Source: Chrysophaeum taylorii (Eukaryota > Sar > Pelagophyceae > Pelagomonadales > Pelagomonadaceae). From it: 64,000 nucleotides of DNA. Below are positions 1 through 45,984 of this stretch, piece after piece (positions within the stretch are counted from its first letter, which is position 1; every line of letters begins with the position of its first letter). Made by a program: the position numbers and the translations under genes. The stretch lies in assembly GCA_029834535.1 (NCBI GenBank), contig JAQMWT010000441.1:62001-126000 (forward strand). The letters are read 5' to 3'. The notes under the pieces were generated by a model. It was given only the letters and a program-made list of their open reading frames with translations, was not told the DNA's origin and did no database searches.

Positions 1-1828
1 AGCCAATTTCATCGGATCCTTTTCAGGATCTTCTTCCTCGTCTTCCGGCAGTTCGGTCGTAATAAACGACATTATGAAGTGGCAGCCGGAGGCGGGAACT
101 CCTCGGTCATCAACAGGTCGGGGAAGCTCTTGGAACACCAAATAAGCGTGGTTCAAAGGTTCTCCAAACTCGTCAGTCTCGATGACATGATCTATCGGAT
201 TGTGGGAGAGACAGTCAGGGATACTCATTCCCGGTGACTTTCCCGGCTTGTAACCAAGTTCAGGGTCAAAATTGGCGAGGCGCATCGCCCAACGAGCAAG
301 CTGCCCCGACGAGTGCGTCGCCTTACATAAAAACGTCAAATTTCGGTGATCGGTCTCCAAAACAGTCCTGTGCCCTTCGATGTAGGCTCGAAAGGGCTGT
401 AGAGAAAGTATAACTGCCAGTAGCTCTAGCCGACGGGGCTCGTAATTGCGCATCTCCTTCGGCACAGCTCGGCTCCAATATTCAATCACTCGTTCTTCTC
501 GAGTCACTCTTCCTGCATCGTCCTTGACTTCGACAATCTGGAAGAGATATGCTCCAAGTCCATCCTTGGAAGCATCGGATCGGATCTGAAAAGGCAGATC
601 ATAATCGGGGTGGTAGACTCCACGGGAATCTACCAAAGCTTCAATAATCGTATCCCAAGCTTTCTGACACTCGGGCGTCCACTCGAACTTTACACCTTCG
701 AGGCATAATCGTCTCAGCGGTTCCACGATCTTCGAGTAGCCCTTCACATATCGCCGGCAGTAATTACTCATGCCGATGAAAGAGCGTATCTGGGTCTTCG
801 GGGAAGTATTCGGTAAAATACCTGGAATCGGCATCTTCTGCAGTGCTTCCAGCGTCTTCGGATTCGGCTTCAAGCCTCCTGGGGTAGAAATGTGTCCCAG
901 AAATTCTATATCATCCTTGAGAAGGTGGAACTTCGCGGTTCTACCGCTGTACCCTCTCTGTGCCAAATGACACATCACTTCGATCAAAACTTGTAAATGT
1001 CGATGAAGATCGTCGGATCCCATCATAATATCGTCAACAAACGCAACCAAGTCTCGATACATCCATTTCGAAAGGTCGCTCGCCATTTGCTTGCAGAAAA
1101 GAGCTCCGGCCGTCTTCACACCTAGAGGTAATCGCAAGAAACTATGAGCGCCAAGTGGGCTAACCATCGTGACAGCGTCTTGCGCTGCCGGATCCAGACG
1201 AAGGTTGTGGTATCCCCATCTAATATCAATGCATGTCCGTCATCGTCGCATAGCGAGAAAAGCTAGAGCATCATCTTGTCGAATGTTCGGCCAACTGTCA
1301 TTGACCAATTGATCGTTGAGCTGACGTAAGTCAACTGCAGCACGGAACGCGTTTGACGTTCCAATCTCAGCTCCTTTCTTCGGAAGCATCAACACAGGAA
1401 AGCCCCAAGGTGAGTTGGGCCGGACGAATGACTCCATCCCGGCACCACTCGCTGATCTGCTTGCGGAGACAATCGAGCTTCGCAGGCGTCAATCGGTAGG
1501 GCGTCATCTTAATCGGTCGCGGATTCGCGTCTTTGAATCGTAGAGACACAGGAGGCGAGTCCACAGGTCTCATAATCGGGTCGAAAAAGGCCCAAGAATA
1601 CTGCACACAGTGACGGAGCATCCGTTTCGCCTCGTCATCTAAGTGCGGATTGTCAGGAATTCCTAACTCCTGAACAATCCTATCAACTTCTTCCTTCGTA
1701 GGAATTTGAACTTTCATGGCTTCGTTGTCCTTGACATGCTCGGGAGTTTGCGGCAGCGGTGCACCCTCAGCATCGCGCGGCGCATCTTTCCATGGCATAT
1801 CGAACTTTTTCTCATATTTTAGTCTCAC
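1..1828 (-). mobile_element. gypsy copy A: reverse transcriptase and RNase H region (fossil)
   Basis: The minus strand encodes a Ty3-type RT: an N-terminal segment with PIKMTPYRLTPAK, then palm segments like SPWGFPVLMLPKKG. An RNase H region follows toward position 200, with the LETDHRNLTFL type motif. The corresponding plus-strand copy is at 60,648-62,345. Part of a broken element. Confidence 0.9.
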
Positions 1829-4800
1829 TTCCGGGTGGCTTTTGTTGATCCTCTCGCCTTTGACACGAACACTCGGCTCGCTCTTAATCTTCGGTTCCCG
1901 ATCTCGCTCAGGATCTGGCGGAACATCCAGATTTGGTTGTCGGGGGCAGCAAAAGAAGCATGAGACGTCCCCGGCTCATCTGTTGCAGGCGGAATCAACG
2001 GTACCTCTGGAGGTTTCCATTTAGTGCGATCTTGGAGATCATCAGTCGACACCCATCTTACGACACGTGTGCGCGTGTTTAACAGCGGAACTTGTACGTG
2101 ACGCAGGGTGGTTTCATCAATTTGCAAATAATAATCAAACGGTCGGTCTGGCGGACTTAACGCCGACGGCAAAGCTTCGCCGCTCAGGTGAAAATCCTTG
2201 ATCACAGAGTTGTGCAGATCGAGTACTAATAAGGTCATCGTGTCTGGTGGCACGACGGACGCCAATTGTTTCAACGAGGTCGTCCTGGAGAAGCCGGCCC
2301 AATCAAAATCAAGGGGCATCGTCAGCAACTCTGAAGTCATTTTCAGATTCAGAGATCTGTAATCGGAACGGTTCTGTCCTACGTGAAGCGGGACACGCGC
2401 AACTGTATAAGCTGCGTCTGTCGCGGCTCGTGATGATCCTAGATTGTTCATCTGAAGCAAATGTCGTTCGTCGGCGTAGCCAAGTGCTGCGGCGAACTGT
2501 TGCTGCATATTCTTGCAAGTCTTCGGAACTGCGCGCAAATGGAGCGGATGGCTGGAAACCAACAATCGCACGCGACAGCTCATCAAACTGGGCGTTATGT
2601 CGTAAAAATTGACTACGTACACGTAAGGGTGCAAACGCGCAACGTAAGAAATAATCGAGGCCTCCTGCTCTATCAACCACATGAAGAAACCAGCCATCTT
2701 GCATAATTTCATCGTCCAGTGGGTAGCGGTGACTCCCTTGCCAACATCTCTGGAAGTCAAGTTGCACAGAGCGGAGTGTACGCAGGGTGGCGACGCGATA
2801 CACATCGACGACGACCATTCCGCGTTGGGTAAATAAGATTCGATCAACCGTAAGGTTGTAACATAGCGACCACACAGTGTGTGCTGCACCACGGGAAGGT
2901 TCGGAAAATTCTTATGGCGGATCTGGTTGGCGGTGTCCGACGCGTCGAGTGCTAGCACGACTCGAAACGACGTCCCACACATTTCGTTGGCTCGTAGGAG
3001 ACCTAAAGTACTGCCTCCGGCTCCACTGAACAGCATCACAACCTTGCGATAAGTGATTGGAAGCCATTGAACCTTTTCGTATCGGCGGCGGATCTCCGCT
3101 TCGGTGATCTCGCGGCATTTCTTTTCATCTTCTTCTGACCTTCGAGCGAAATCGTCGCTGCCGTCGGGTCGTTTGAGGGTGGACTTGTCCGCCATAGCGG
3201 TCGTAGCGTCCTTCTGCACCGTGCTCAGCAGCATCGGCGGGGGAGATTCGTCGCATCGCGTCAAGTGACTAGCGACAGAAACGGTGAAAGAAAGGTTCCC
3301 CTTGTCGTATCCTTCTTCACATTCTTTCGTAAGTTCGTTGATCGTAGAGACGTTCAACTCATCTTCGTACCTAACGATACCGCCAATCGCAAGGACTTCG
3401 CCTTGAGTGACGACCGTCGGCACTTCTTCCGCGGCAGTAACCGCAATCCGAGCAGTGGACCGGTCGTGCTCTTCGCAAGAAGAACACATTCCTTCGACAA
3501 CTCCCAACTGCTCGTTCTCAGCAAACGTAGCGACGAAAACCTGTCCCACTTCCATAGGTTTCAACAAAATAACCGGTAGATTGTAAGTTCGACCGGGCTT
3601 GATTTGAAGCGTGCGCGCAGCGTAAGCCACTACTCCTCGCGCGTCTTCTCCTGGAGCTCGGGAGAGTTTGGTCGTAGCATGTCCCCGCGTAGCCAAGGCT
3701 ACCGTACGTTCCGGCAGCGGGCGTCGGAGATCTTTAATCGTGCTCAAACGAGCGTAAACTCGAGTCTTGACCAGGTCGAGACTCTTCCGAAAGGCATCGT
3801 GTTGATGATTGTAAATCGGTGCGGTTGTCGGATCTCGATCGTAAATAGATCGAAAGGTCACGATTGGTGCATCGATTCGTTCATCCTTGAACTTAATCTT
3901 CTTGCGCCCGTAGACGACTTGGGTTCGATAAAAACAGATTCGATCGTGGGGGTAGTCCACGACGGCTCCTAAAACTCGTATATAGCGCCCTCCCAACAGG
4001 AACAGATAGTTCGTATCGGCCACAATAGCGACAATGGGGGCGGCGATATAGTCGGCGAGGGCGATCCGAATCGCGATCCAACGAAAGATCGTCGTCGTAT
4101 TCAACCCTGATCCGTACAGCTTGCGCTTAATCGGAAGTTCGCCTTCATCGAAAATCAACTGATTTTTGGCCAGCTTTCTGACCATTTCTCGGCAAATATA
4201 AGAAACATCTGCCATTCCATCGACACCGATGGTCGTCGAGAATTTCGGTCCGTCACGATTCCTGTAGATGTGACAGGCCATAAACGTAAGAGTACCCGTA
4301 TCTAAACAACTGAGGGTAACCAAATCATCTTCGATCGTCTTGCCATCTCGCGGCGTCAACGAAGTGTGAGCACATCGGGCTCTGACTCGCTCATCTCCGG
4401 GGTTGGGCATTGATACCGCGGCTTGAGCTTTCGTATCATCTGTTGTTGGCGTCATCGACATAACGCTCGCGGCAGCCTCTTTATCTGGCGGCTTCCGCTC
4501 TTCCTCCAAGACAATCTCAGAGGGAATCAGTGCTGGTAGGGGATCCCGATCTTCGCTATTCTCGGAAGTAAAGGACCTCTCCCATAACTCATTCATTTCG
4601 TCTTTCCAAAACGCATCCGTATATTCATTCGTCGTTGGTTGATCATCACCATCATCGGCGATCGGTTCCGTGTCGGCTGCGGATTCGAGTCCGTAGCTGA
4701 GCGGTTGTTCTGGTGGCTTCTTTAGCAAGAAGTTCCGAGTTCTCGTCCACCAATCCTGCAGGTTCCACGTCGGCTCATCTTCGTCCCACTCGAGAACGCT

Positions 4801-6554
4801 GCTAATCTTCTTCTTAAATCTATCCTTTTCTTCCGGCGGCGTGTCCGTGGCTCGATCCGTAGTGGCCGAAACCGTGTCGGGGGGGTCCGCAGGAAAAGAT
4901 GGCGTCGTCCCCGACGTCAACTCTATCGTAAGATCGTCGTCTGCATCACTCGCGATGGTCATCGTCTCGTCCGTCGAATGATCGCACGAGCTATCACTGC
5001 AGAAACCCATGTCTGGCTCACAGCCAGTTCGGTCGCCAAAGGTCGTCTCTGGAAGGTCCAAAGATAAGCCGATAGCGTCGAGGGCTTCCTCGTCAAAAAC
5101 AAACGGTGCGTCGTCAGTGGACGACTCGTCAAATAACGTTATCGCGGACACTGGTTCACAAGGTGTAGCTTCTTCTTCTTCCAAGTCTGAATCGCCTTCC
5201 CAGTATCGTGGAGCTTCGAGGTCATCGCTCGAATCTTCGAGTTCATCGCTCGACATCTCCTCATAAATCTGTGCCAAAGACCGACGATTGGTCAGCACGT
5301 CGTTGGGTGGCTCGTCCATCGGGGGGCGAGCAAGATCTTCGAATGCGGCCGCGGCAAGGGCGTCGGCTGCGTCGTCGGTGCGGGTGTCCGTGTTCGGGTA
5401 CACCATCACTCCTAATAGTAACTGCTGACCGCAAGGGGTCGTAAACGAGAATGTTGCAGATGAATGTCCCGAGTCTTCCCGGTAACGACCGTCGTCCGAA
5501 TTTCGATCGCGAGATCTTCGTTGCCGGCGGCGGCGTGAATGTCTGCTAGAACTCCGGCTGTCTTTCCGCCGGCGCCGCTGGCGCGAGCTACTACGGCTCT
5601 TGTCGCGGCGTCGGGGGCTCCGGCTATCTCGACGGCTCGATCGTGTCGAAGACGATCGGCCGTGTCCATCTTTCAATTGCTTCACGGAATCCATAACCGT
5701 GGTCAGCTGCGTGCCCATATCATTGAGTCTGCACTGAATATCGTGAGCAGCGCTCGAACCGAGGGTGGCATTAGAACTGCCGTCGTCACGCGAATGATTA
5801 TCTCTCCTTTGTCGGCTCTCCCATCGTCCTCGCGAGATGGGCTTTTCGCCGTTCTCGATGTATTTGCACATCGCCACGTAATAGTCATCAGGCTCGCGGT
5901 TGCAAATAACCCGGTTCCCGTGTTCATCTTTGTCGTGGGTCGTTAAGAAAAACCCACAATCCTTGCATGTCCTCTCGAACCACTTTTTCGGATTCTCTTC
6001 GAAGCGTAATGCTTCATATTTCGTTGCTTTATCTTTTGTTCCCGAGGCGAGCGCCCGTCCTCCGCGTCCAAATGGTGGCTTCTGCGGCTTCCCGCCCGAT
6101 GGGTTCGTTGAATTTCGGCTGTTCTTCTCCGCCATGGCTGTCGCGAAATCGTTCTCGAGCCGTGTAATCAATGACAACGTAGACGTAAGCGTCTTATACG
6201 TCGTCGGGTGTCCGCTGCGCATCGTTCGCACGCGGGATTTCAATTCGCTGGACTCCAGTCCGCGTATCAAGTAAGAAATGATCTCCACATCGTTGAGATC
6301 TCGGTTGGCCACAGAACAGTACGCCATGGCCTCTTGCTGAAATTTGATGCAATACTTATGCACGTGGCGTTCCCCAGAGCGTTTCGGAAAGGTCGCTTGG
6401 GTCGTGCATTGCAACTTTCGTAGCGATTCCTCTGCCGTCACCGGCAGTGGGCAACTCTCTCGGAAATATTTCAAAATCTTGAGGCAATATTTCTCATTCA
6501 ATCGTCGTAACCGTCGTACCACGGAACCGCACTCCTCATCGTCGATATCCCGAC
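1825..6554 (-). mobile_element. gypsy copy A: gag remainder, protease-like and DNA C5-methyltransferase-like polyprotein region (fossil)
   Basis: This is a long open stretch of about 1,590 codons. Going 5' to 3' on the minus strand it holds a gag segment (about 6,550-5,900), an Arg/Ser-rich stretch (about 5,650-5,450), an acidic linker (about 5,330-4,500), and a retropepsin-like segment containing TIGVDGMADVSYI near 4,220. A region of about 2,150-3,070 follows that reads like a DNA cytosine-5 methyltransferase. Its motifs are motif I LFSGAGGSTLGL near 3,045-3,005, a motif IV-like SPPC near 2,782-2,793, a motif VIII-like CRVRLLV near 2,560, and a motif X-like VVPPDT near 2,250. Gag-pol with an inserted methyltransferase is not standard for Ty3, but the second copy in this window has the same order. 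Confidence 0.85.
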
Positions 6555-6958
6555 TCCAGAGAGCCACACTATTATGTGTAAGACACTGGAAAATTTTCAC
6601 ACCTATCTCTACACGAGGGGTTTCTCTCCGTAATACGGCTTTCCCTCGTTCCTCCTTTTTTTCCCTTACCCTTCCGCAATTAATTATTCATGACTATGAA
6701 GAACCCAGTCTGAAGCTCTTTTCCAACATGGAGTAGGCCTCCAGGTGCGTACCGTCAGGTACGGGGTTTTCTGTTTAATTAACAGAGGCTTCGTTCCTCG
6801 TTGTCAGTGTAAACGCTTCAATGGGACCTAATGTCCTTAAGGAGTTAGGGCCTAAATCCCTACCTTGCGTAGTAGCATGTGACAAGCGGAATGGTCTGTA
6901 CACGCCTAAGACTGCACACAGTCTCTACCATGTACCCGGAGAGGGTCAAATCTCTCCA
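6555..6958 (+). repeat. copia 1 5' LTR
   Basis: This 404-bp LTR matches 18,392-18,789 over its whole length. It begins TCCAGAGAGC, immediately after target duplication CCGAC, and ends AATCTCTCCA, immediately before the primer binding site. Confidence 0.93.
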
Positions 6959-6972
6959 GGTTATGGGCCCAG
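6959..6972 (+). promoter_or_regulatory. copia 1 primer binding site (initiator tRNA-Met anticodon type)
   Basis: GGTTATGGGCCCAG directly follows the 5' LTR. It is complementary to the anticodon stem-loop of initiator tRNA-Met, not to the tRNA 3' end. Drosophila copia is known to use the same internal site with a half-tRNA primer. Confidence 0.85.
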
Positions 6973-7368
6973 ATGCGTAGGTGTGTCAGCCCAACTGTGT
7001 TGTACGTCTAAATCGAATGATCAATTTACGCCTGATTACGAGTACAATGCGACAATGTGTTTGGCGGTGGTCTACTGTACATATTTGTTGTGTGACGGTA
7101 TGTGCCCACCAGTTAAATTGGTTTGTGACCGAGTTGGGTCGGTCACTGGTCACATGCACTCGCATAACCAATAAAATTAAAATTTTTCCTATACAAGCCG
7201 CGGAAACTTGTACGGGTTTTTACTTCCATTCCCCAACAAAAGACTGACTGCTCGAGAACTAATCCACTCTTCAGTCTCAAGTCACCCTGTTTTAAATAGC
7301 ATGTTGATTTGTTTGGTCTTGTCAATAAGCCCACGTTTAAAATAGCGTACTGTACATAGAACCCGCAC

Positions 7369-9275
7369 TTGAGAAGCCCTTCATTCTTATGTGTCGAATC
7401 TGTCTATCAATCCTCTAGCCTATCCCTTAATAGGTCACAATCATGTCAAAACGAAAAAACAATATCTACCACGGATATCTACAAACAAGCACAAATCCTC
7501 GTTGATAAAATTAACGCAGGATTGCGTTTCCAAGATAATTCAACCAAGGTGAGCTTGCAAATTGAAGCGCTTCGCAGGCATATGACAAGTCCATATGTGG
7601 ACGCGTTATTCTGCTTCGATTCATATGAAGCTTACACCCGGAATGCTCCGGAATATAATCAACTTCTTGAACAAGAAGTTGATATCATCTTCGCTCAATG
7701 GAAAGCTGAACAAAGTAATGATTTAAACTTACCTGATGAAGATGCCCTGCCCGAACATTTAAAGACTTGGCACGTCAACTCTTCCCATCAACTAACAGTT
7801 GATGCCCGTAATAATCTTGAACGACTTTACTACCAAGAGTCGTACAATCTCGTCCGTCCTGAATTAAATGAGGATGTTAAACATGTCCACACTTTATTAG
7901 ATACCCGATTTCCTAAATCAATTGTATATGATTCATCTTTAACTAACATATCCTTTACAGGTCTCTCTAATGCCAATTGGATCAAACACTGCGAAACTTA
8001 TGCTGGTTTCTTGTAAACATTCTTTAACCTTGAGTCCCAGGAAAAGCCCGCTCTCGCTATGTGGCCTCAACTAAAGAAAATTTATGCAATTACTGCACAT
8101 CCCAATAAATTACGTGCTGTAACGCTTTTAGCCTATCATTACTATGAGACAGTGTCTTGTACAGATGTAACTGAGCTTAAATCTCAGTTTAATCGAATGT
8201 CTCTAAATGTTAATTGGTATGCCCATGTATTTGTCGAACAACTCCTTGCCTTTCAATCTCAGGCAAAGCAATTAAATACTGATGAAGCATCAATCCAATT
8301 TAATAACTCCATAGTCACTCTTAAAGCTCACGAGGAGATCTACCGTCTATATGCTAATCCCTCGGATCACGAGCGCTATTCTCAATCTTTATTGGAATGG
8401 TGTAAACTCTACGAGACACGCTCTAGTAACAACTCGAATCACGATCCCGAATTGTTAAAGCTAGTTGATCCTAACGACGTTCGTCCACTATTGGAATTCT
8501 TGTTAAAGATATATAATGAGACAAAGTTTTCTTCTAACCGACGCTTGGATAAACCCGCTTCCTGGATCCTTTACATCCCTGGTACTACCGCTACCAAGCC
8601 ACCTAAAGTATTATTGATGGATACTATTAATCAATCCCACGACCCTCTAAACAATGTTTACTCGATGTTAGCTACTGAACCTTTATAGTCTGGCTTCAAC
8701 GCTCGTAAGCTTCGTAATGCAAAAGACAAAGCATCGACAATTTTACCTCGTGACACATCGTACTATCGTCCACCCTCAAATTATAACACCAAAGGTACCG
8801 GCTTCGATCGTCCTGTCTACTCATCTTCCTCTAACCGCAATGCACGCTCTAATATGTCTCTTATGGGCCGGGCTACTTATCAAGTTGATCGTCTTCGCCA
8901 CCTGTTTGGTAAATTACAGGAAGCGAATCCCAGTCCTTCCACTGACTCTAAAATGGTACAGGAGGAAATGAAAAGCTTATTGAGTACTCTCTGGACAACC
9001 GCTTCTCAAGCTTCGACACAGTCCTTAGATCCTGATGAATTTATCTCTACTTATCTCGAGTTGATACTATGTCCAATACCATATCGAACCTCTTGGAAGC
9101 CGATAAGGAATCTCTTGTTTCAGAAGAAAAGTATCAAACTGAAACATCTGCTCCTGAAGCGTCCCCCAGTGATGCGGAGCAGAGGGGGACTGCTGATACA
9201 GAGAAAATGTTCCACACGTTCCTGTCCATTAAAGATGATGAAATCGATAACATCCCTCAGCCGCTATTGCAGCAC
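7369..9275 (+). mobile_element. copia 1: gag-like region (fossil)
   Basis: Open stretches encode a helical, retrotransposon gag-like protein (for example 7,369-8,016 and 8,059-8,688) upstream of the protease motif. No zinc knuckle was recognised. Assignment is by position between the primer binding site and the protease. Confidence 0.6.
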
Positions 9276-10175
9276 ATAAATGCTAAAGATCAGAATGCTA
9301 TCGTTCGTCGTCAAGCTCGGGAAACTTCCTCGCACTCTGAGCTCCCCAATAATCTACCCAACGAAGATAATGAAGATGGCACAGATCCCCCTGTGTTGCT
9401 ACCAAAATTAAATACTGGTTTTACACTCGTCGTTGTGCCTTCCGAACAAACGCAAAGTTTCATGACACAGTGCGTGTTTGGTCAAAGCTCAACACATGCC
9501 TGTTATGCAACAATGCTTAAACTGTACAACGAGTACAATTTGCCGCTAATGACTACGCCAGGATATGCTGACACATGTGCTTCTCAACATGTAATTAACT
9601 TTAAACGTTATGCTGATCCTATCCACATCGTAAAGCTACCCGAGTTTTTATCACCTGCTATCCAGACTGCTACGGATACGCAGAGAATCACACATGCTAT
9701 GATTATAAGGACCGTCATTCCCGCTCTGCCAAAGCATCCAAATGTGGGATATGTAAAGCTAGACGTTGCGCTTTTTCTACCCAAGCAAAACGACCATAAC
9801 GATCCCGATCTGCACATCATCAGTATGACTCAATGGGGAGAAGATAAACTTGGTATACATCTTTATGGAGTTGAATTTAAAGGACAATCATCTATCCAGA
9901 GTAAAATTGATGATAATGTCAAGATTACTTTGTTTAGACTCAGTAACCTGTTGCCAACTCTACCAATTTACTCGCTACAACAAGCAAAAGCGCGTAAAAT
10001 GGAACTTCGCTCACTACAGTTCAGACTATGTGCTTTTAATGAACAACGCGAAATGCTCAAACTATATTCCACCCTCATGGAACGAGTAATTTACGTCCCA
10101 TGGCTTAAAACCATCCTGGAGTCAATGCATTCGCAGCTGCCTTACATACGCAAGCATTTCCCACCTCCTGTATGA
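9069..10175 (+). mobile_element. copia 1: protease-containing region (fossil)
   Basis: The reading stretch contains GYADTCASQHVI near 9,560-9,600, which matches the copia-type aspartic protease signature (D-T/S-G/C-A-S followed by H). It lies between gag and the methyltransferase-like region. Confidence 0.65.
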
Positions 10176-10960
10176 CGCAAGGTTACAACACGTTTGCTCC
10201 CACAGTAACTTCATCTCCTAGCCCACGAATACCTACAGTAACTTTACTTTGCTCTGGGATGTCCACTCCTGCATTCTTGGCTAGCGCTTCTAATGACTTG
10301 CAAATCAACATCAACGTTAAAGTTCTTGTTGAGAGCGACGACAATATCACGCACATGCTACGAAGACGTTTTGGTAATTCCATCGAAGTTTTCCCATCCT
10401 TACCTAAGTTTTTGACATATCTCCATCGAGCATCGGACGTTGAACGTGCACGATATTACACTGACATAGTGGAATTGACATCACCATGCACAAATCGCAA
10501 CATAATCAATGGGAGATCCATTTCCACCTTCGAGCGTGATATGGATGATTCCTTGTTCCCAAGTGCTCTAAGTGTACTTGAGCTTTTAAAGCCGCTTGTT
10601 CTCTTCATGGAAATGACTCCACCACACTCCGCATCATACGAAGATCATATACGAGTTGCCAATCTCATCTTCTCAACGATGCACTATACGGTGGACATAT
10701 GTGATGTGACCGATTTCCATGCTATTTACGTGGAGATTATCAAGCCAAAGAAAGATGGATCCTCGTCGCACGCAAATATAACACCGCCCCTCTTGATCTG
10801 CTTTCATGGCCTAATAAACTAGTCACTTCCTTTCTGGATATTGCAGACCACGCTAACTCCATCAGTCGCAAGTTAATAGTCGACGAACCTTGGACGCAGG
10901 TCTTTCCTGACATACCATTTGTGTCCACACCTAAAACCTACAATATTTTCAGTCGTACAG
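10172..10960 (+). mobile_element. copia 1: DNA cytosine-5 methyltransferase-like region (fossil)
   Basis: The motifs of a C5 methyltransferase appear in order: motif I-like TLLCSGMSTPAFLAS (about 10,241-10,285), an acidic motif II segment, motif IV-like TSPCTN (about 10,477-10,494), motif VI-like LFMEMTPP (about 10,600-10,623), and a motif VIII-like segment with RWILVAR near 10,755-10,780. A separate homologous piece lies at 55,304-55,531 on the minus strand. It is inserted between protease and integrase. The methyltransferase here is only distantly like that of the gypsy copies, which suggests a separate acquisition (inference). Confidence 0.75.
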
Positions 10961-12399
10961 GATCCGTGCGCTTAACTGTGACTGAGCTTGAAACCTTAAC
11001 TATGCTGTTCCTTCGTCTGCACTCTAATAAAACAGTCGAACATCCCAGTCAAGATGAAATGGAGGGCATTTCTAACTCTCGCCTAGGATTCTTGACTAAT
11101 TCAAGAAAACCACTTGCTTGCATGAGATCCCCTATTGAACTCAAAGCCTTCGTGCTCCTCTGTAATATTATGGGACGATTATTCCCTAAATCCATCACGT
11201 TACCTGTGTCCTTTCGTATTACAACTATCGAACCTAACCAACCATCTCACAGGTTATTCTTAAATTAATCCTCTACTTCATCCATCATTTACATCACTGG
11301 TGGAAGACATACAGGCGGAGACATAACAGTTTCCAACTCTTCCTCTAAATACCAGACACACGTAAATGCTTTTGGCGAAACCTACGCTCTTTTAACACAC
11401 GATGCCGGAATCGATAAGACTGCTTCTCTCGAACCTGTCACCGGTTTTCTTTGGCTTTGCCAAGCATACCATCATAATGAAAATCAAGACACGCGTCGTC
11501 TAGTACAAGCACTGGTTTCATATACCTCTCCTGTATTTCACGATTCTTTTGTCTTCTACCCTCAGGAAAATCGTCTTGAATTTATCGACAAAATATTTGC
11601 TTTAAGTGACATGCACTTGTCCCAAAGCAGATATTTGGGCTTTATAACATCAAGCGATAGGAAAATGGGTGCCAAAGTTCACTCTATATATACTCCAACT
11701 CCTACCATTCGTGGATTTGCTAATATGCCCGTGTACGATCCACGACTCGATCGCATCCGACACTACTCAACTCGCGAATTGGCACGCGCCAATAACTTCA
11801 CAGCGTACCAAATCAATTTTCTTTTGTCTTTGTCCTCGGACCTATGCTGTGATATCATCGCAAATGCTATTCCAGCTGGAACATATCATACAAATTTAAA
11901 TTTTAAATTTATAAACATTTGTGTCAGCTTGTCTATGACTTGCGTATATTAACGCTATCACCATCGTTTGACCCTGATCACGCTCCTCTAACCAAAAACT
12001 ATAGGTCAACCTTCTTCACAAATATATTCCCAACAGATACATCTTTAACATTACACCAGAGTTCCATTACTATGTTCTACATCTCCAATAAAAAACTCTT
12101 ATGTTGTGATACTATCACTTCTAACCACGAACTTACTTCTTTTCATACTGATTCAGTAGCTCATGCTTTCCTCTCTAACATCTTATCCGCAGATATATCA
12201 TCTCCTACTAAAGAAAAACAAATACCCCTTATAACGCCAAGACAGCTCCATGAGAAGCATGCACCCTTCGATAAGAAAGTCCATGCCAGGGATCCATCCA
12301 GGGACACCCTTGCATTTCGAGATGCGCAACAGCGAGGTACCAATTTTCACAACATTCACCATTCCAGTGATTCTCAAGCCATAAAAGCTGTTCAGGTTA

Positions 12400-13250
12400 T
12401 TGCCAGTCCTGGACACCACCCATCTGACGTACCCTACCGTAAGTTCTGTGTGGATTGTACGATTCATAAAAAACGCTTTCCTCATCCACACCACCTTATC
12501 AAGCAACCATCATTCGAAAAAATTTTCAACCTGGTGAAGCTTGGGCATGTGACGGTGGTTGTCTCTGTGCTCTCGGAATGGGGATCCTTTCGACATATCA
12601 TTGTTTTCAAGTGTCTCATTTCTAAATTTCTGTTAGTGTACTTTTGTCGTAGCACTAACTCCAGCGAATTTTGTAACGCCCTTGAGTTTGTCCGCAATTT
12701 TGCTCTACTTATGTTCATGTACAACTAAAACAAATCTATTGTGATTCCTTTAAACCCTATTTATCTCAGCATGTTACAACCCCCTTCCGTGTGGAACATG
12801 GTATTAATATGTCCGCGTTTCCCCCTTACTTACATGTCTTTAATCATGAAGTCGAAGCCGCTGTTGGTCACATAGCCACTGCCGCGTCTACACGACTCCG
12901 GCATATGCTTAATGTATCCTATAAAGGTCACCCCCTAACAGATCCGGCACCACACTACCCGTGGGCTGTTATACATGCTATCCAATCATATAATCTCCTC
13001 CCTAACGTTTCCCTCGAACGTATTTACAATAAAGTCCTAAGCCCCCAACAAGTTTTGTTAGACCAATGTAATGTTCCCCAACAGGACTACCTCAAACCTT
13101 TTGGTTCTGTTTGTTATCTGCATTTGGAACCTAACGAATTTCATAAATATGAACCCCGATGCCGTCCCTACATCTACTTATGTGGTGCTAACGTTATAAA
13201 CCCTTTAATAACACCCCATGTTAATCATTTAGCCGATGTTGTCCTTAATC
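12400..13250 (+). mobile_element. copia 1: integrase region (fossil)
   Basis: There is a zinc-binding N-terminal segment with the paired cysteines FCVDC near 12,445. Core and C-terminal segments typical of copia integrase follow, such as HEVEAAVGHI near 12,850 and FGSVCYLH near 13,100. Confidence 0.8.
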
Positions 13251-14279
13251 CTGAAAACGGTCAAGTCCGTGTTTCCTCTAAACTGACTTTTCCTCATCTT
13301 ATTTCTAAATCTCCTCCTGATTATGAACAGCATCCACCTCCCGCACCTTCACCCGACATTCCCTTCTCTGTTCACAGCACCCCCAATGATGCGGCGCAGA
13401 GGGGGAATGCTATGCCAACCGACACTGACCATGAAAGGGAGACTCCTTCTTCTCATCTCCATGCTCCCTCTCCCGCTCCCGCATTTACTCCAGCTGCTGC
13501 TCCTGCGCCCGCTACTTCCGCCACCACACGTACATCTGAAGTGTCTCCCGACACTCTGCCACTTTTACCATCTTATCGGTCTCTTTGTTCCCAGGATGTC
13601 TTCCGTCTCACCCGTGGCCCTCATCACCCTCAGCCTCGTCGCAAAACCAATTTCAAGGATGTTCTTACTCGTATTGCTTCGCTTACTGTTGCCGCTTATA
13701 AACAAGCCGGTGGTACGCTTGCCGACTTCAAGTATGACCTCTCCAAGCAGTACATAACGCTCTGCGACCCCACCCTCCACTCCCTTCATATCGCTCATGG
13801 CATCCACTGGACGGCTATACCTCCAGAGGGGGAATTTACACCACCCCTTCATCACCATGTGCACCAAGCGATCTCACAGTCCTCTTCACTTATGTGTCAT
13901 AGGAGCCATAGCCACCCATCGCCTGATACTCCTCATGTTCACTTCTGCGACGACGTCAACCCTGCAGACTTTCACCTTCCTCAAGCTCTCGTTCATTTAA
14001 TTTCTGAACATGCTCACGCCTTTCAAGTTCCTCCCGCTCAATATGTTTATGCTTTGCTCACGCCCCACTCCATTTTGGATCATAATGACGCTTCTTATGG
14101 TGCCTCCGAACCTCATCTCTCCGCAATCGAAGACTATATCACCGTGCAATCACATTACATTGAAGTCCACCTTGGTGATGCTCCTCTACTAGTCGTTCAA
14201 CTCATCGAAGATCCCGATCACGCTCATCTGCTCGATAATGTCGCTTCCTACGCAATTACTCATCTGACGACGACTCATG

Positions 14280-16118
14280 ACCCCAGCACGGTTGGTTCGG
14301 ACGAATACAAGATTCAAGCCAAAGATATCAAAATTGATGAATTTGAATTGAATTGCCTCAAAGGTCTCTCAGACGCTGATCGCAAAGCTTATGTTGCTGC
14401 CATCTCCAAAGAGATTTTTGACATTGTTAAGTTTGGCTGCTTTAAACTAGCGCTGCCAATGGTCAACTCAAAGCCTATTGACACCCGTCTCGTCCTACGC
14501 ATAAAAACCAACGCTGCTGGTCAGTACATTAAACATAAAGCACGCCTGGTACTACTAAGCCTCTCTGGGCACCGATTTTTTCAACACATTCAGCCCTATG
14601 GCACAGCTTACCGGCATCCGTTGTGTTTTGGCGCTAGCAGCTCATCTGCGACTTCCCGTCTATCATGTCGACGTCCCTAACGCTTTTGTTCAAGCTCCCA
14701 TCGATTCGCATGTCTATGTTAAACTGCCACAAGGCATTTACCTTCTCGATCCCGAAGATACTAAATATCAAGGCCGCCGTCTCCCAAAGCTATTTTCTAT
14801 GGATTGCGTCAGAGCCCTGCCCTTTGGAATCAAACCATAAACAGCTTCTTTGATTCATTAGGCTACACACGATTTCGAACAGACACATGCATTTACGCTA
14901 AAGTCCAAGCTGACGCTACGTTTCTAATTTGCACGCTCTCAGTAGACGACGTCGTCATTACTTGTACTTCGGAAACTCTACGTCGTGAGTCCCAGCAGGC
15001 CCTGAAAAAGGAATACTCAGTTGACACCTTCGAGGAAGTCCATACTCTCCTAGTCATGCGCATAACGCGTACAACAGATGGCTCTATATCACTGGATTGT
15101 CAGGCTAAACTTGACGCATTGTTCGAAGAGTACCCCATTTTAATGCAGTTACGTCCCACTTCTACACCGATGTCACCATCAACCACGTATAAAACTGGAG
15201 AGCCATCTTCTGATATGGACAAGTTCATCTTTCATACCTTCTCTACGCTACTCGGCAAGCTCACGTTTGTTCAATTGACCTGTCGCCCTGATTTATCCCA
15301 AAGCCTTAGTCGTTGCTCTCGAGGAATGCATAATCCAGCATTTCTGCATGTTCAAGTACTAACAGGAACGCTCCGCTACTTGCGTAAGCCCGAAAATCGC
15401 AATCTTCGCCTCTGGTACTACTCTGGTTCTTCCGCTCTAATGGACCATCTTCGACTTCTTATCGGTAATCGTACTGACATGGCCACCATGTTGGACTACA
15501 CTAAAGAACAAGTTAATCCAGGTAATTTTGATCCACTGGTCGCATTCGTTGATGCCGATAATGCACCTTCTTATGAACAAGACCGCAAATCTACAACCGG
15601 CTATGCTATCTTTTTGTTTGGTTCTCTCATCACTTGGAAGTCTAAGCTACAGCCTATAACAGCTACTTCTACGCATGAGAGTGAACTTATCGCCCTCAAT
15701 ATGTGTGCCGATGATGTGGTTTGGTTACGCAAATTGCTAACGGAAATGGCATTCGTTATAAATCCTCACTCCTATCTCCACCAACCTTTCAGGGAAAGGT
15801 CTGCTACTAGATTATGATGCTCACGACAATCCCCTCCCATCGGGCATGTCGTTCATACGTAACAGTCCTATACTGGGAGATTCTGCCTCTGCTATTCATC
15901 CTTCCAACAATCCCGACAGTGCGACTAAGGCCAAAGCTATCAGCACACGCTGGTTCCGTATACGCGACTACGTACAGTTAAAACGAATACGCCTACATCA
16001 TGTTTCCGGTACCCATAATATCGCCGATGGATTTACCAAACCCTTTGGAGCTCCACTCTTCAGCAGATTTCGCACGTTACTCGGCTTACAACAACCCATA
16101 GCTCAACAAGATGGTTAA
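14280..16118 (+). mobile_element. copia 1: reverse transcriptase and RNase H region (fossil)
   Basis: RT segments include DVPNAFVQAPID near 14,670 and a VDDVVI catalytic box near 14,945. RNase H follows with DADNAPSYEQDRKSTTGY near 15,550 and STHESELIAL near 15,670. The typical C-terminal tail HHVSGTHNIADGFTKPF ends near 16,050. This is clear Ty1/copia type. Confidence 0.92.
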
Positions 16119-16273
16119 TCATTACCCTCCATTATGTCCGAAATGACTTTAAACTAACCCTGCTATGCGCAGGATACTGGCTTGCTAAAATGTGAAATGC
16201 TACATAAAATGTGATGTGGAGATTCCTCTCATGATGAATCCCACTAAAAACAAAGATGCTGCGAGATGACGCC

Positions 16274-16324
16274 ACTCTACCATGTACCCGGAGAGGGTCA
16301 AATCCCTCCAGGTTATGGGCCCAG
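16274..16324 (+). repeat. internal second copy of copia 1 LTR tail plus primer binding site
   Basis: Positions 16,274-16,310 repeat the last ~37 bp of the LTR, and 16,311-16,324 repeat the primer binding site GGTTATGGGCCCAG. This lies inside the element, 150 bp after RNase H. It suggests a composite or recombined element. Confidence 0.85.
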
Positions 16325-16345
16325 GTGGTCGCGGTGGTGGTATAC

Positions 16346-18274
16346 TGTCACTGTCTCCACCTTTTAATGCTCTAACTCCAAGCGTTGCACCGACTAGTTC
16401 CCCTAATCGGAAACATCAAACCTATTTGTCGGTGGCGCAAGGACATCAATCTACGCCCGTGACGCCCAAGGCGCCCAAGACAGCTGCCCAACAACAGTCT
16501 AAATCGCAAGCAGCAAAGTCTGAGTATTTCCTGCTCAAACACTGTAAATTTGACGTATTAGCGATGATGTCCGGGAACGTTAATGCTCTTGGTTCATCAC
16601 CACCCAGCTTTCTTATTCCGCAACACAAGGACCCCCAGTGCTGGCTTAAGTCTTTGCAGCAGCTGCTTACGGAAGCACAACAGACAGAGTTTGTAGACAA
16701 CGTACAAGTGTTCATTATTGTGTGTCAAGACAAAGCGTATCCGAAACGCCCCCGCAATATCTCCTAACGAGGGAATACGTCTGCATCGCTTCCCGCCCAT
16801 CAAAGGGGTTGTCAAAGTACATGTGACGTGTACAAAGTGCTACAATAAAACTGATATGCCAGGCACACCAGTCATGCTCATCATATGTAATGAAGGTGAA
16901 CTTAAAACTGACAGGATTCGCCAAATTATTGAGGATCATCTCGCGTCTGAGCAACACGCATCCCACTGCTTTGACGTACCGCGCCCTTTCTTTTTGTTGA
17001 TTTGTGCGCTGTGCGATCGGTCACACCATGGGATACCCTTAATTCGCAACAGTCAGCAGCCATTCCAACTGTCTTGTTTTAATGATCCGGCTGCTCACAC
17101 CAGAGCTATAATCCTCCGCCTTGGAAAGTCAATTGCTATTAATAAGCAGCTCAAAGAGGCAATCATGCAGACTGCGACATCCCTTAAACTTGATGCCTCT
17201 AAAATCATTGTTAACCTTGATGATAGCACCATGCTTTTACTTCAGTTGCCCTTTATCTCGAGTTTAAATCTTGAGATTCTTGTAGCAGCTTGGTCTTTGT
17301 TACATTCTGTTGAAGATAAAGTATGTGTAGTAACCAACCCGGATGAGCTGCTTAACGTGCTTGTCGAACACTTCGTTAACGATGTTTCCCACCAATTTAA
17401 CGCAATCTCCTCCGAAACGTTACCGCCAATGCTTAATTATTTTCGTCAACTATCACCTGTACAGCAAACTGCCTTTAAAAATGTGCTAATCCAGGTTGGC
17501 TACCCTTCGGACATAATTGAAGTCTTTTCAGATGATATTTCTTCTGAAGATGTTTCACCAGCGCCGATCGACAATCCACCCGCTGAACCCACGCCAGATA
17601 AAGCTAACGACGATATGGCTGAATCTTTACATCAATTAAAAGAAGAGGTTCGGTCTTTATCCTTACGTCTCACTAATACCGAACAGCAATTGATGGCGCG
17701 AGATCAACAACTATCGCTTGCATTAACATCTCTCACACAGATGCAAGAGACTTACGAAAATTTAAACACTCAAGTGATTGAGAACATCAAGCATGTGTCT
17801 CTATTAGACAACATCTTGTCAAGTCTTCAGATGCATCAGGACACCACAATCCCGTCCTCTGCTGTATTTGTACATATCATTTCTCGGTCACTTATCTCCT
17901 CTATTGGGCAGCTCCCTCCAGATACGTATAATGAGGCTCAGCAAGTTCAAATCGACGCAGCAGCTCATCACCTCCACACAGCTATGTCTGATGCAAATGA
18001 TCGTGTTATTCCTGCATTGGATCTACACGCTCTTACACCCGATGCTGCTATGTCTTTCCTTTCGTCTGTCATATCACCCTTGGTCACCTTGAGTGATGCA
18101 ATGACTACGCACAATACTAACACTACTAACGACCTACCCTCTGATGTTCATAATTCGTCTTCTCCAGAGTTAAAGGAACTGGACGATAATAGCGAAGATG
18201 AATTGGACCATACATCTGATGTGGATACTGATACAGCTTCTTTGCGTAACATTACAACACGCTCGACATCATAA
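16346..18274 (+). mobile_element. copia 1: extra 3' coding region with coiled coil (fossil)
   Basis: Long open stretches (16,346-16,767 and 16,718-18,274) follow the internal primer binding site and end just before the polypurine tract. The larger one predicts an alpha-helical protein. A heptad-like coiled coil lies around 17,630-17,820 (LHQLKEEVRSLSLRLTNTEQ type), followed by a Ser/Asp-rich acidic tail. It resembles a gag-like or structural protein, but I do not recognise its family. Its position after RNase H is unusual for copia. Confidence 0.6.
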
Positions 18275-18382
18275 TTAATTTGTCCTGTTCTGTTGTTGTT
18301 TGTTCCATTGTCCACTGTTTCCATGTATATTGCACAAGTTCCGCCTCAAGAACGTCTGAAATGCATAAACCGTTTCCACACG

Positions 18383-18391
18383 TTGAGGGGG
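18383..18391 (+). promoter_or_regulatory. copia 1 polypurine tract
   Basis: TTGAGGGGG lies immediately 5' of the 3' LTR. This is the expected place and composition for the plus-strand primer. Confidence 0.75.
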
Positions 18392-18789
18392 TCCAGAGAG
18401 CTACACTATTATGTGTGCGACACTGGAACATTTTCACACCTATCTCTACACGAGGGTTTTCTCTCCGTAGTACGGCTTTCCATCTTTCTTTCCTTCCGTA
18501 CCCTTCCGCCCTTTTATTTCATGGCTATGAAGAACCCAGTCTGAAGCTCTTTTCCAACATGGAGTAGGCCTCCAGGTGCGTAACGTCGGGTACGGGGTTT
18601 TCTGTTTAATTAACAGAGACTTCGTTCTCCGTTGTCAGTGTAAACGCTTCTATGGGACTTAATGTCCTTAAGGAGTTAGGGCCTAAATCCCTACCTTGTG
18701 TAGTAGCATGTGACAAGCGGAATGGTCTGTACACGCCTAAGACTGCACGCAGTCTCTACCATGTACCCGGAGAGGGTCAAATCTCTCCA
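18392..18789 (+). repeat. copia 1 3' LTR
   Basis: This 398-bp LTR is followed by target duplication CCGAC. It pairs with 6,555-6,958. Confidence 0.93.
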
Positions 18790-20301
18790 CCGACGTAAGT
18801 AAAAAGACGCTGGTTGATCGAGATCTTTACACAGGTCTTCGTACTTCTTTAAGTGTTCTCGAAAAATCGGTGCGACTGTGTCGCGCAGGGTCGCGGGTAG
18901 CAGGTACCGTAGTTTCTCCAAGCCTAAATGGTCTTCGGCTAACGTACTCATCACCGCGCCCGCATCTAAATCGAACTGGTCCTGATCGCGTCCATCGAGA
19001 ACCAGTTTAAAGGTTTCGGTCTTTAATCCGGAGGTTGATCGCCGCTCCTTGTTGCGATCGTGTTTAGCTAACGCGCTGGCGAATCGATCCGTGAAACCCA
19101 TAAAGAACTCTTGGGTGTCGATCCTTCCGTCGCCACGCGTCTCCTCCATTTCTTCGTCATCGTCGTCTTCATAGCGCGGCTTCCTAGCTTTCGCGCGTGA
19201 TCGTGTAGTTGGCGGCTCCTCCTCAGCTCGGGACCCCGGGCTGCTCGCTCGCCTTGATCGACTCGGCGTACGCAACTCGTCTCTTTCACGTGTCAACGAG
19301 CTTACTTGATCTTGGAGGTCGTCTGCTCGAGCGTTGGCCCTACGCACTTGCTCTCTTAATTCTTCGGCCTCCTTCCGTCGTAGCCGCTCTTTTCGTTCGT
19401 TTTCTTCTTCTATTTGTTTTAAAAGTCGTTCCTGCGCGCGTTCGTTCTCTTCGCGTAATGCCCGCAAGTGAGCCTCGTAGAACTCATTCATTCCCGTTAC
19501 ATCCGGGGGTCGTGCACGCGTTGACGGAGCTGTCGATCGTCCTCCCGGCGGTCCCTCCGCGGGCTCGCCGTTGTTGTAGTCTAGCTCTTCTTCCTCGTCG
19601 TCAACTTCCGTGTCGTGCTCTTCTTCATCGTCATCATTATCATTATCGTCATTCCGCTCGCTCGTCTCATCCTGACGGCTTGGCGGTTCTTCATATCGCA
19701 TCTGCTCGACGGCAGCATCATCGTCTTCCATATCGGCTCTGGCTCGTTCTAGTCGGCCGAGATCAGAGCGGGTCCAAAATGATTGAGTCGTCGTCGTTCT
19801 CGTGCTCCTTCGACTCTTGGACTTCTACTCGTCCACGACACGCCTAATATCGTCGTTGCGTGCGTCTTCCGCCGACAAATCTATCAGTCAGGTGGGCGGC
19901 AGAATTCGTCTCTGCAATCAATGCCTCAGTGAGTTGCGATCTCACTCCGCTCGCCTGCGGCAGCGGTACCCGGGTTGCGCGTCGGCTAGCACCGAATCGC
20001 GCGTCGTCACTTCCGACGACTAACGTATCCGGCCGGGGAACTTTCCCACGGCAGTGGTCCTTCTGGAATTTCTTGTCGGCGCGCTTGATCAGGGCGTGCA
20101 CGGCTTGTCCGGACCGTGTAGAGAATGCAAGATGCACTCGTTCGCTGCGACCGATATAGTCGCTCGAATCTCGTATTCCTCCACCACCTGTGGCGTAAGG
20201 AGAATTTTGGGGCTACCTGGCGTGCCTTCGAATCCTGGCTCGCCGCTCGCGTCCGTGCCCTTGGTGGAGTCACTGGACGAGAGTGGCCGTTCTCCCGCCA
20301 C
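18790..20301 (-). mobile_element. gypsy copy A: gag N-terminal region (fossil)
   Basis: On the minus strand the gag region starts near 20,301 (MAGERPLSSSDSTKG). It continues through an acidic and then a charged coiled-coil stretch (REENERAQERLLKQIEEEN type, about 19,470-19,330) to the copia insertion point. The downstream part of the same gag resumes at 6,554. The leader and first gag residues also match the palindrome at 55,546-56,253. It is part of a broken element. Confidence 0.8.
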
Positions 20302-20523
20302 ACAACCACAAACAACCTCCGTGCCTGGTCCTCACAACTTGAGGATCGGCTGTTGCTTTATGATTAAGATATTATCGAAACACAGAAATCAGGGTGACAC
20401 ATGTCACAGAAAAGAAAGATGATGTCATAGAGATAACTGACATCATCAGAACGGAGTAGGGTGACCCTGATAAGGGGGGGGGCTATAGAAGAGGGGTATG
20501 CCTTAGGAGGCGGGAGTTGCCGC
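20302..20523 (-). repeat. gypsy copy A 5' LTR and leader
   Basis: On the minus strand it starts near 20,523 with a GCGGCAACTCC segment shared with the palindrome arms at 55,546 and 56,253, and leads into gag. The exact LTR end could not be fixed because the 3' LTR is outside the window. It contains a 10-bp perfect inverted repeat (20,418-20,427 and 20,438-20,447), GATGATGTCA/TGACATCATC, which could form a hairpin or a pair of CRE-like sites. An outer inverted pair, ATCAGGGT/ACCCTGAT, lies at 20,388 and 20,464. Confidence 0.65.
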
Positions 20524-21700
20524 CGCAAGACAGACAGACAGACAGACAGACAGACATTTGCCGATTAGTAGTAAGGAAATAAATAAAATAGACACGAGGA
20601 GACGACGCTAAGCGACGGTTGCAGCATGATGCCAGACCTCCCAAACAGGCCTCCATAATTTGGTCCGGGCGAGGCGGCCAAATGTCGCGAGAAGACGAGA
20701 TAACCACACGTCATCAGCATCGACGTCACGAGCAACAAGGATGTCAATAAGCGCCGCCGGCAAACGACCGCGCACGAGGTCATAAGCAGCGTCGGTGCCA
20801 TATGCGAAGGGCAGGGCAGACGAACGTCGTGGTCGTAGATCAAGCAACAGGGCAGTGTGGGAAGCAGAGAGACGTGAAGACAACCAGTCCTGTAAAGTCA
20901 AGCTGGCAATACAAGCGGATCGAGTAGCAGAGCAGCCACATTACCCTGTCTCGCCGTCGTCAAAGTGGGATGTGGGCAGGTAGTCAGAAGATGGAGAAGG
21001 GACTCGGAAGAACCAGGGCGGCGACAACAGCGACACGTGTGATCAGGGACAACAAATCCCCAGGCAGCAGAGCGCGGTCGGGTGGCTAATATTGCTCCAT
21101 GAGGAACTTTACCTGCATGGCACGCGACATGAATGACTTGCACGGGCCGACAAAAGATGTCCGGAAGAGCAAACTGAGAGGACGGACGTCGGCAGGCTCT
21201 TAAGCACGAAGGCGCGCAATGCCAAGTTGCGTCAGCAAAGTGGGGCTAACCCCATCAAACAGACGGCGGCGCTGGAAGGTGACAAACCAACGTCGGCCAT
21301 GGCAGAAATGCGTGCAAGAAGGGTCATCCGCAACCGCTCCACACCGGCCACGCGCCGCAAGGCCATCAGCAAGATGTTGGAGAGACTCGACAGAGGTGAA
21401 CTGGGAAGAAGATCTGCGACGCTTCGGGTGGCCTTGTACCCACTCGAAATCAAATGAACCAAAATGTGTCGTTAAGCGTGGAGTGAAGTGCGCAAGCTCA
21501 TCCCGAATATCGCTGGATGTGACTGGCATGCGTTGCGAGAGGCCAGAATGTGCGAGCACAGCACGTTTATGGTCAAGAACAGCTTTCACAGGTAACCGAG
21601 GGAGTACATCACGTAGGGACCAAAGTGCAGCTTGTGCGGCATAGATGCCCATGACCCCAGCACGATACGCAGATAGAGTTCCAGGACCGGGAGCGGCCCG
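20524..21700 (-). mobile_element. LINE (non-LTR retrotransposon) 3' fragment with RNase H-like and zinc-knuckle regions
   Basis: Minus-strand reading stretches from 21,652 to about 20,600 look like the C-terminal part of a LINE ORF2. An RNase H-like segment has GIYAAQAALWSLR near 21,650 and WVQGHPKRR near 21,400. It is followed by a Cys/His cluster, CRCCRRPG..LLTTCPH, at about 21,045-20,990, then a helical tail. The coding is spread over three frames, so it is decayed. The element lacks its RT and is 5'-truncated. On the minus strand it ends with a TACTACTAATCGGCAAATG segment and a (TGTC)n tail at 20,525-20,556. The tail type is shared with the repeats further right. The clade was not determined. 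Confidence 0.65.
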
Positions 21701-31082: not shown

Positions 31083-31139
31083 TTCATAAAAAGTGTGGGC
31101 GATGTCGTCGTCGAAAGCAGGAGGGTTTAGGACTGACTG
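31083..31139. promoter_or_regulatory. 57-bp bidirectional intergenic region
   Basis: The start codons of the DnaJ gene (minus) and the fucosyltransferase-like gene (plus) are only 57 bp apart, so both promoters must overlap each other or the coding regions. No TATA box was seen. Confidence 0.6.
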
Positions 31140-33035: not shown

Positions 33036-33153
33036 CACCCACGCGACCAACTGCCGGGCGTCCTCCTCGATTGTTCAAACATCATAATTTCGTCCTCAAC
33101 TCAAGAGTGTTGTTTGTTTACCACTCGAGTCATAAATCTGCATAATAATAATA

Positions 33154-36079: not shown

Positions 36080-36122
36080 TAATAATATGTTGTCAGTAGG
36101 CAACAAGTGGAAGCAGAATCCG

Positions 36123-38558: not shown

Positions 38559-38627
38559 CACACTTTACTAGTATCTAGGCCACGTGGCCAACACAACTAA
38601 ACCTCTCGTCGTCATTCGGTGTAGTGG
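38559..38627. promoter_or_regulatory. 69-bp bidirectional intergenic region
   Basis: It separates the divergent starts of the DENN gene and the ankyrin gene, the second such very short divergent gap in this island. No clear core-promoter motif was seen. Confidence 0.55.
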
Positions 38628-39536: not shown

Positions 39537-39610
39537 GATCAAGGCAGGGGGGAAAAAAATTTTTACCCTCGACGTAGAATAGATCTACAATTAAGAACCA
39601 CCACCTAAGC

Positions 39611-40731: not shown

Positions 40732-41116
40732 CGACGAAAAAAGAAAACGCCGGTTCTTAATTAGGTCTGGTTCTTAATTGTAGACAAGTGCAGGCCAGTA
40801 AGTTCGCCAGTAAGTTCACCTGGTCCCAATCTCTAACCCCAGTAAGTTCACCTGGTCCCAGTAAGTTCACCTAGTCCCAATCTCTAACCCCAGTAAGTTC
40901 GGCGTAAGCCCACTCGTGCTCACATCCACTCACCCCACTCTCCTTCGAGCTCGTCGCTCTCACCTCCGCCAATCTAAGCTGCTTTGATCCGTACACGCCG
41001 CTAGCCGTTCACTCTAAAAACCCCATAAGTTCACTTGGTCCAGTAAGTTCACCTGGTCACTAAGTTCACCTAGTCCCAATCTCAAACCCCAGTAAGTTCA
41101 CCTGGTCCCAGTAAGT

Positions 41117-45937: not shown

Positions 45938-45984
45938 GTTTTGTCGATCCGCGTATATATATAGACTACGTCCGTCGACTCACC

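Follow-up and report, generated by a model that had tools for sequence, protein, structure and literature searches.

Retrotransposons bearing the kind of enzyme thought to silence them present a paradox, one described from dinoflagellates and a charophyte (PMC5890265). In the charophyte Klebsormidium nitens, KnitGypsy-Dnmt3 encodes a C5-cytosine methyltransferase (MT) inside the Pol open reading frame (ORF) of a Gypsy-type long terminal repeat (LTR) element, with expanded copies and purifying selection reported; SymbioLINE-Dnmt and SymbioDIRS-Dnmt3 of Symbiodinium are likewise many-copy, selected retrotransposons with a C5-MT (de Mendoza et al. 2018, PMC5890265). Here we analyse 64,000 nucleotides of the Chrysophaeum taylorii genome (contig C441, positions 62001-126000; "the window" throughout), in which two Ty3/gypsy copies, A and B, carry a predicted C5-MT ahead of reverse transcriptase (RT). 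An earlier sequence-only reading of this stretch (the original prediction) had proposed such a family and had rightly noted the dinoflagellate and charophyte reports.

The 2018 authors suggested that such elements methylate their own cDNA, or RNA in the case of the long interspersed nuclear element (LINE) type; SymbioLINE-Dnmt enzymes did not methylate yeast DNA, and RNA was suggested as their target (PMC5890265). One sentence of a paper citing that study places DNMT3 members in "LTR Copia and DIRS families" (PMC12344493); the 2018 paper calls its streptophyte element Gypsy (PMC5890265). In the accessible text of PMC12344493, "stramenopiles" and "pelagophyte" do not occur, and the open-licence literature accessible to us yielded no report of pelagophyte LTR elements carrying a C5-MT. 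C. taylorii is a marine pelagophyte alga (Stramenopiles, Ochrophyta, Pelagophyceae), which bears out the suggestion that a stramenopile would be a further lineage and widens the trait to another major group. Since retrotransposon C5-MTs were already known (PMC5890265), what is new here is the host lineage, the enzyme affinities, a copia carrier and the presence of several families in one genome. The assembly searched comprises 70.8 Mb in 697 contigs; the genome paper gives 71 Mb in 702 contigs, nowhere uses, in the main text, a word starting with "retro" or "transpos", and describes strain NIES-1699 as kept in culture (PMC10366177).

A predicted C5-methyltransferase module in a Ty3/gypsy polyprotein

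By profile and motif, one module of the gypsy family polyprotein is a predicted C5-cytosine methyltransferase. Profile matches and motifs place the domain at 2119..3120 on the reverse strand in copy A (subfamily A) and at 59394..60395 on the forward strand in copy B (subfamily B). The ordered motifs of the original prediction are where it had put them, namely LFSGAGGSTLGL (3033-2998 in copy A; 59481-59516 in copy B), SPPC (2793-2782; 59721-59732), RVRLLV (2574-2557; 59940-59957) and VVPPDT (2256-2239; 60258-60275). We collected 44 gypsy MT copies (14 of subfamily A, 30 of subfamily B), of which 30 were aligned and scanned with profiles. The PF00145 check that had been advised gave more than chance matches: every one of the 30 copies is matched at E<=0.1 (1.2e-6 at best), and the isolated copy B domain reaches 23.9 bits, above the cut-off of 22. 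TIGR00675 (dcm) matches 29/30 at E<=1 (best 5.7e-4), far under that model's cut-off of 100.65 bits. A DNMT2 profile, built on 29 proteins, reaches 28-40 bits in 30/30, aligned from motif I through SPPC; hhalign of the gypsy MT against the DNMT2 alignment gives a probability of 96.8 (E 2e-10), and in a single BLASTP comparison of copy B with the host Dnmt2 the alignment continues past motif IV (E 4e-5).

C5-MTs share numbered motifs, with canonical forms such as ENV (VI), QxRxR (VIII) and GNxxP (X); in the gypsy MT, motifs VI, VIII and X were assigned by position and conservation. The putative catalytic Cys of SPPC (motif IV) is present in 44/44 copies, the Glu of motif VI in 43/44 and both Arg of motif VIII (R-V-R) in 44/44, and each Pro of VVPP, the putative motif X, in 43/44; no profile covers VVPP.

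The position of the domain is clearest in an uninterrupted relative on contig C5 (L047), whose single 3063-codon open frame holds MT, RT, RNase H and integrase. The element, of ~10.3 kb with LTRs of ~336 bases, is ordered gag - protease region - MT - RT - RNase H - integrase, supporting the proposed placement of the MT between protease and RT, with the putative protease read by eye from the motifs GVDGMAD and LLG...GAVVDY ahead of the MT (no Pfam protease match). In the L047 polyprotein, Pfam finds RVT_1 (1997-2161), RT_RNaseH (2256-2368), H2C2 (2552-2610) and rve (2628-2721); over this whole protein PF00145 at 1443-1498 scores 18.4 bits, under the cut-off. RT, RNase H and integrase thus share one Pol, as in gypsy elements, and direct LTRs bound the C5 copy (~336 bases, TG...CA ends, pair 98.2% identical) and copy A (pair 95.9% identical). 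No target site duplication is seen at the C5 copy flanks; those of copy A sit in TGTC-like repeats.

Selection and copy number

Between subfamilies A and B, summed dN/dS (nonsynonymous over synonymous substitution) is 0.055 in the MT (410/420 pairs usable), 0.037 in RT (154/154) and 0.134 in the protease region (147/180), far from the MT ratio near 1 beside a constrained RT that the original prediction had named as its refutation; A-B dS is saturated (about 2-2.2) and the absolute values are rough, a point to which we return. Within subfamily A the ratios are 0.17 (MT), 0.22 (RT) and 0.32 (protease region), and within subfamily B 0.21, 0.32 and 0.47, respectively. Along the MT, dN/dS is lowest (0.019; 121/420 pairs usable) in the segment with the Cys and motif VI (codons 113-168) and highest (0.148) in the one with the putative motif X (codons 281-334). 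The MT module has been retained by selection as the element multiplied. At least 120 genomic matches to the gypsy MT were found (the best 120 of 1030 candidates were scored, and all matched). Sequence flanking the C5 copy on its 5' side has at least 40 matches at 99-100% identity (best 40 of 197 candidates); subfamily A has therefore spread recently.

A second carrier and the affinities of the enzymes

A genome search with PF00145 listed 57 matches (best 123 of 474 candidates scored). Among these are one Dnmt2 (L001, contig C634) and one DNMT5 (L002, contig C621; E 3e-143 against PDB 7r76); the other 55 lie at sites that recur in the search list for the MT of a Ty1/copia family (compared by eye) and are members of that family. 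The Dnmt2 gene is free-standing, and its 360-residue product is identical over its full length to a C. taylorii protein. With only two other C5-MTs among the 57 listed matches, native methylation may be studied against a simple background.

From its domain order, this Ty1/copia family carries a predicted C5-MT between protease and integrase, the integrase preceding RVT_2. Locus L049 matches PF00145 at 349-475 (32.1 bits, cut-off 22) and RVT_2 at 1686-1933, with a weak rve at 1016-1110 (E 0.006, below cut-off); L050 matches PF00145 (29.9 bits) and RVT_2, no rve being listed. The copia MT has at least 155 matched stretches in the genome, some of them pieces of one copy (best 150 of 623 candidates). 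Pairwise dN/dS among eight copies is 0.11-0.21 in 25/28 pairs; two pairs of close copies have 0.27 and 0.30. A homologue search with the copia MT matched none of 7996 candidates scored.

For affinities, we compared DNMT2, Dcm (13 phage and bacterial proteins) and DNMT5 (one sequence), a set outside which DNMT1, DNMT3 and DNMT6 lie. Median best-domain scores of the gypsy MT are 32.7 bits for DNMT2 (30/30 rows), 16.6 for Dcm (30/30) and -1.8 for DNMT5 (19/30 rows reported); those of the copia MT are 38.4 for Dcm, 3.4 for DNMT2 and -0.5 for DNMT5 (1/8 rows reported). Against solved structures, the sole C5-MT met by the gypsy profile A1 was DNMT2 (three entries, E 0.036-0.61), alongside three unrelated proteins (E 0.42-0.55), none significant alone, and in this search no entry for DNMT3 came in at E 1 or better; the cytosine methyltransferases met by the copia profile were M.HhaI (best E 0.019) and one other, neither significant alone. 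The gypsy and copia MT families could not be aligned with one another. No homologue of the copy B MT appeared at E<=1e-3 among 3880 candidates, a search confined to proteins of 0.55-1.75 x 944 aa and hence excluding long polyproteins, and viral contigs searched with the gypsy and copia MT alignments gave no match.

On these profile scores, the N-terminal half of the gypsy MT is DNMT2-like, and the copia MT resembles bacterial Dcm. The likeness of the gypsy MT to DNMT2, a C5-methyltransferase of tRNA cytosine-38, covers the motif I-IV stretch, including D-x-S-T-x-x-N and SPPC. The CFT motif, which we take to belong to the target-recognition part of DNMT2, is present in 29/29 DNMT2 rows and 0/30 gypsy rows, and because of this absence we do not file the gypsy MT as a DNMT2. 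A 77-column tree likewise sets the gypsy rows beside, not inside, DNMT2 and the copia rows on a long branch; the join of the three is weak (85/86), and the tree is a poor guide to their origin. The copia MT, closest to the bacterial and phage Dcm type among the tested classes, differs from it in sitting within a copia polyprotein. Within this set of classes, the gypsy and copia MTs are likely to be separate captures.

These affinities distinguish the C. taylorii families from the described systems. The MT of KnitGypsy-Dnmt3 is of the Dnmt3 class, whereas the gypsy MT best matches DNMT2 among the classes tested; the repeats of KnitGypsy-Dnmt3 are described as DIRS-like, whereas the C. taylorii gypsy element has ordinary direct LTRs; and the Symbiodinium carriers are LINE and DIRS elements of another host group (PMC5890265). 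The passage on LTR Copia concerns DNMT3 (PMC12344493), a class outside our test set, whereas the C. taylorii copia MT is Dcm-like. Two or more unrelated LTR families of this genome hold MTs that differ in affinity but sit at one and the same place in the polyprotein, which suggests a trait that was selected rather than accidental.

A candidate third carrier

The copia element nested in copy A (described below) is likely a third MT carrier, and we treat it as a candidate. Its MT-like domain (10109..11949, forward strand) lies between a protease-like motif (9555-9587) and the integrase region, with motifs in the order CSG, SPC, EM, QARER, TREL and NAIP; the frame is broken into three in the window and open in four other copies; beside the window stretch, the domain occurs at L079-L082. 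The RT of this element is 26% identical to that of L049, and a search with part of the MT-like domain gave at least 150 matches (best 150 of 1153 candidates scored). Pfam reported no family in 3/3 copies at E<=10, and our Dcm, DNMT2 and DNMT5 hidden Markov models found nothing significant. Hhalign against Dcm scores 25.4 (probability 5%), a score reached by 0/300 column shuffles (maximum 24.7). In sequence shuffles the first four motifs occur in order in 4/100,000 and all five in 0/100,000, for a pattern picked after viewing the sequence; the four-motif form fits 9/13 known Dcm rows and the five-motif form 0/13, and neither fits any of the 30 gypsy, 8 copia or 1 DNMT5 rows. Over 179 codons, dN/dS is 0.01-0.10 in 6/6 pairs of four copies, a strong constraint.

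Proposed role and alternative explanations

We propose, as a reading whose truth we hold to be evenly balanced, that the gypsy C5-MT has been selected and methylates the element's own replication intermediate within the particle, copia having acquired its enzyme separately. The proposal starts from observed presence, position, constraint and copy number, and it is the activity, substrate and benefit that we infer. As a selected and probably catalytic Pol module, the MT would act where Pol acts, i.e., inside the particle, in which it would travel together with protease, RT and integrase. There it would methylate cytosines of the intermediate, either the cDNA or the RNA that serves as its template. 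A new copy might thereby escape being silenced or sensed by the host; alternatively, the methylation could set the chromatin state of that copy after insertion. Since a copia family of the same genome likewise has a C5-MT next to its protease, likely from a separate capture, the MT would probably be of general benefit to LTR elements here.

Given the DNMT2-like N-terminal half, the substrate of the gypsy MT may be RNA. A bolder version, which we consider quite improbable, would have one gypsy and two copia families, all unrelated, each capture a C5-MT and place it directly after the protease, with the DNMT2-like gypsy enzyme modifying RNA in the particle (tRNA primer or genomic RNA) and not DNA; if true, this would be a retrotransposon with an RNA-modifying enzyme of its own.

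Several observations, in addition to the saturated dS, weigh against the domain assignment or against self-methylation by a gypsy-encoded enzyme. The Pfam match is limited to motif I plus the following stretch. Scored over their whole ORFs, the two window copies reach 17.3 and 19.8 bits with PF00145, below the curated cut-off of 22, as might be expected if the motifs had arisen by chance within an unrelated polyprotein stretch. We find that explanation scarcely credible: several profiles match every scanned copy (TIGR00675 all but one), and dN/dS shows constraint. No profile used, PF00145 and DNMT2 included, aligns with the gypsy MT past SPPC, in its C-terminal half. Motif X was assigned by eye and is putative; motif VI reads EQE and not ENV, and the canonical Gln of motif VIII is missing. 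AlphaFold, given the element's own copies, returned a mean predicted local distance difference test (pLDDT) score of 36.5, and with DNMT2 rows added 41.8, residues ~21-110 being better and the C-terminal half being without a usable model. In Foldseek, the DNMT2-row-assisted model has human DNMT2 on top (E 5.3e-4, template modelling score 0.22), closely followed by a Streptomyces methyltransferase (7.2e-4) and then plant DRM; the DNMT2 result is not independent, because DNMT2 rows were in the alignment. In the copia family, the MT of the close pair L049-L050 has a dN/dS of 0.49, as against 0.13 in the protease and 0.17 in the integrase.

The non-canonical motifs VI and VIII and the unrecognised C-terminal half would also suit a structural module, in which the MT fold is retained for nucleic acid binding or polyprotein folding and not for catalysis. 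We think this unlikely, as the putative catalytic Cys is invariant and dN/dS is lowest around motifs IV-VI; a role in binding only would not obviously preserve the Cys.

Traces of methylation in base composition complete the points on the opposing side. Observed/expected CpG lies at 1.10-1.21 across 30 loci of subfamily B and at 1.22-1.32 across 12 of subfamily A, compared with 1.25-1.46 in six host loci; there is no absolute CpG depletion in the gypsy loci, although subfamily B falls below the six host loci. SymbioLINE-Dnmts, in contrast, are CG-depleted (PMC5890265). CpG versus GpC transition ratios run from 0.70 to 1.76 in no consistent direction (subfamilies A and B, respectively: MT 0.70 and 1.08; RT 1.61 and 1.07; protease 1.76 and 1.22). 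In the copia loci CpG observed/expected is 1.05 (L049), 1.00 (L050) and 0.93 (nested copia, window 7300-18300), all under the host loci, and TpG/CpA is 1.10-1.17 versus 0.70-0.88 in the six host loci; this shift possibly reflects old methylation decay or composition, as composition and coding differ from those of the host loci. Weak and mixed, the CpG traces give no clear sign for or against CG methylation.

The same data bear on a host-directed action, whereby the MT, instead of modifying the element, would methylate the chromosomes of the host at integration sites or close to them, or would compete with the host DNMT5 system. The host does possess a DNMT5, and published retrotransposon Dnmt3 domains are able to methylate yeast DNA at CG (PMC5890265), but absolute CpG depletion is seen neither in gypsy elements nor in the sampled host loci, and we accord this explanation a small share of the probability. 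Self-methylation in the particle remains the reading that we prefer.

Copies A and B in the window

Copy A lies on the reverse strand. Its open frame (1825..6554, running on into a copia LTR to 6687, so that ~44 codons at its start, 6555-6687, are nested copia LTR sequence) had been taken for gag-pol; it does hold a gag part, the protease region (3598..4422, with a retropepsin-like GVDGMAD at 4227-4207 by eye and no Pfam match) and the MT, but RT and RNase H (1..1720) lie in frames other than that of the MT, this copy being frameshifted. The integrase is in L045, left of the window. Beyond the nested copia, at ~18706-20527, come the N-terminal part of gag and the 5' LTR: the 5' leader and gag N-terminal part occupy 18790..20188 (19160-20144 is homologous at the DNA level to the 5' part of L047; homology of gag to the subfamily-B copy L048 reaches 18706) and the 5' LTR 20189..20527, its 3' partner being outside the window at L045:4301-4639.

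The nested copia itself spans 6555..18789 (12.2 kb, forward strand), with LTRs at 6555-6958 and 18392-18789, RVT_2 and, by eye, a target duplication of 5 bases (CCGAC). Its LTRs are 92.1% identical, versus 95.9% for those of its host copy A, an age order opposite to expectation. The 1.09-kb inverted repeats around copy A were considered as its ends and rejected, being two opposed copies of the copia 5' end. Both copy A flanks (window 20528-20540; L045:4286-4300) are TGTC/TGTT-type repeats, with similar ones near other elements; an insertion preference is possible.

Copy B, on the forward strand, has a protease region at 58077..58916 (GVDGMAD 58290-58310), RT and RNase H at 60798..62249 and frameshift-split integrase parts (H2C2 zinc finger; C-terminal domain) at 62797..63999. 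Its frames are broken by frameshifts, and it is without gag, its homology to L048 beginning at 57571, downstream of the L048 gag frames. Nearby, at 55667-56133 and 56284-57462, a 205-base inverted repeat adjoins an opposite-strand gypsy integrase fragment that is 96% identical to the copy B integrase.

Other features of the window

GC-rich host genes at 30003-39542 include those for DnaJ, a violaxanthin de-epoxidase (VDE) lipocalin domain and a DENN domain; the VDE lipocalin-domain gene fits a photosynthetic host. An array of diverged repeats occupies 40784-52893, several of them spaced ~0.8-1 kb apart (families D1-D20) and with CCAGTAAGTTCACCTGG-like units, and related pieces also occur at 22-28 kb of the window.

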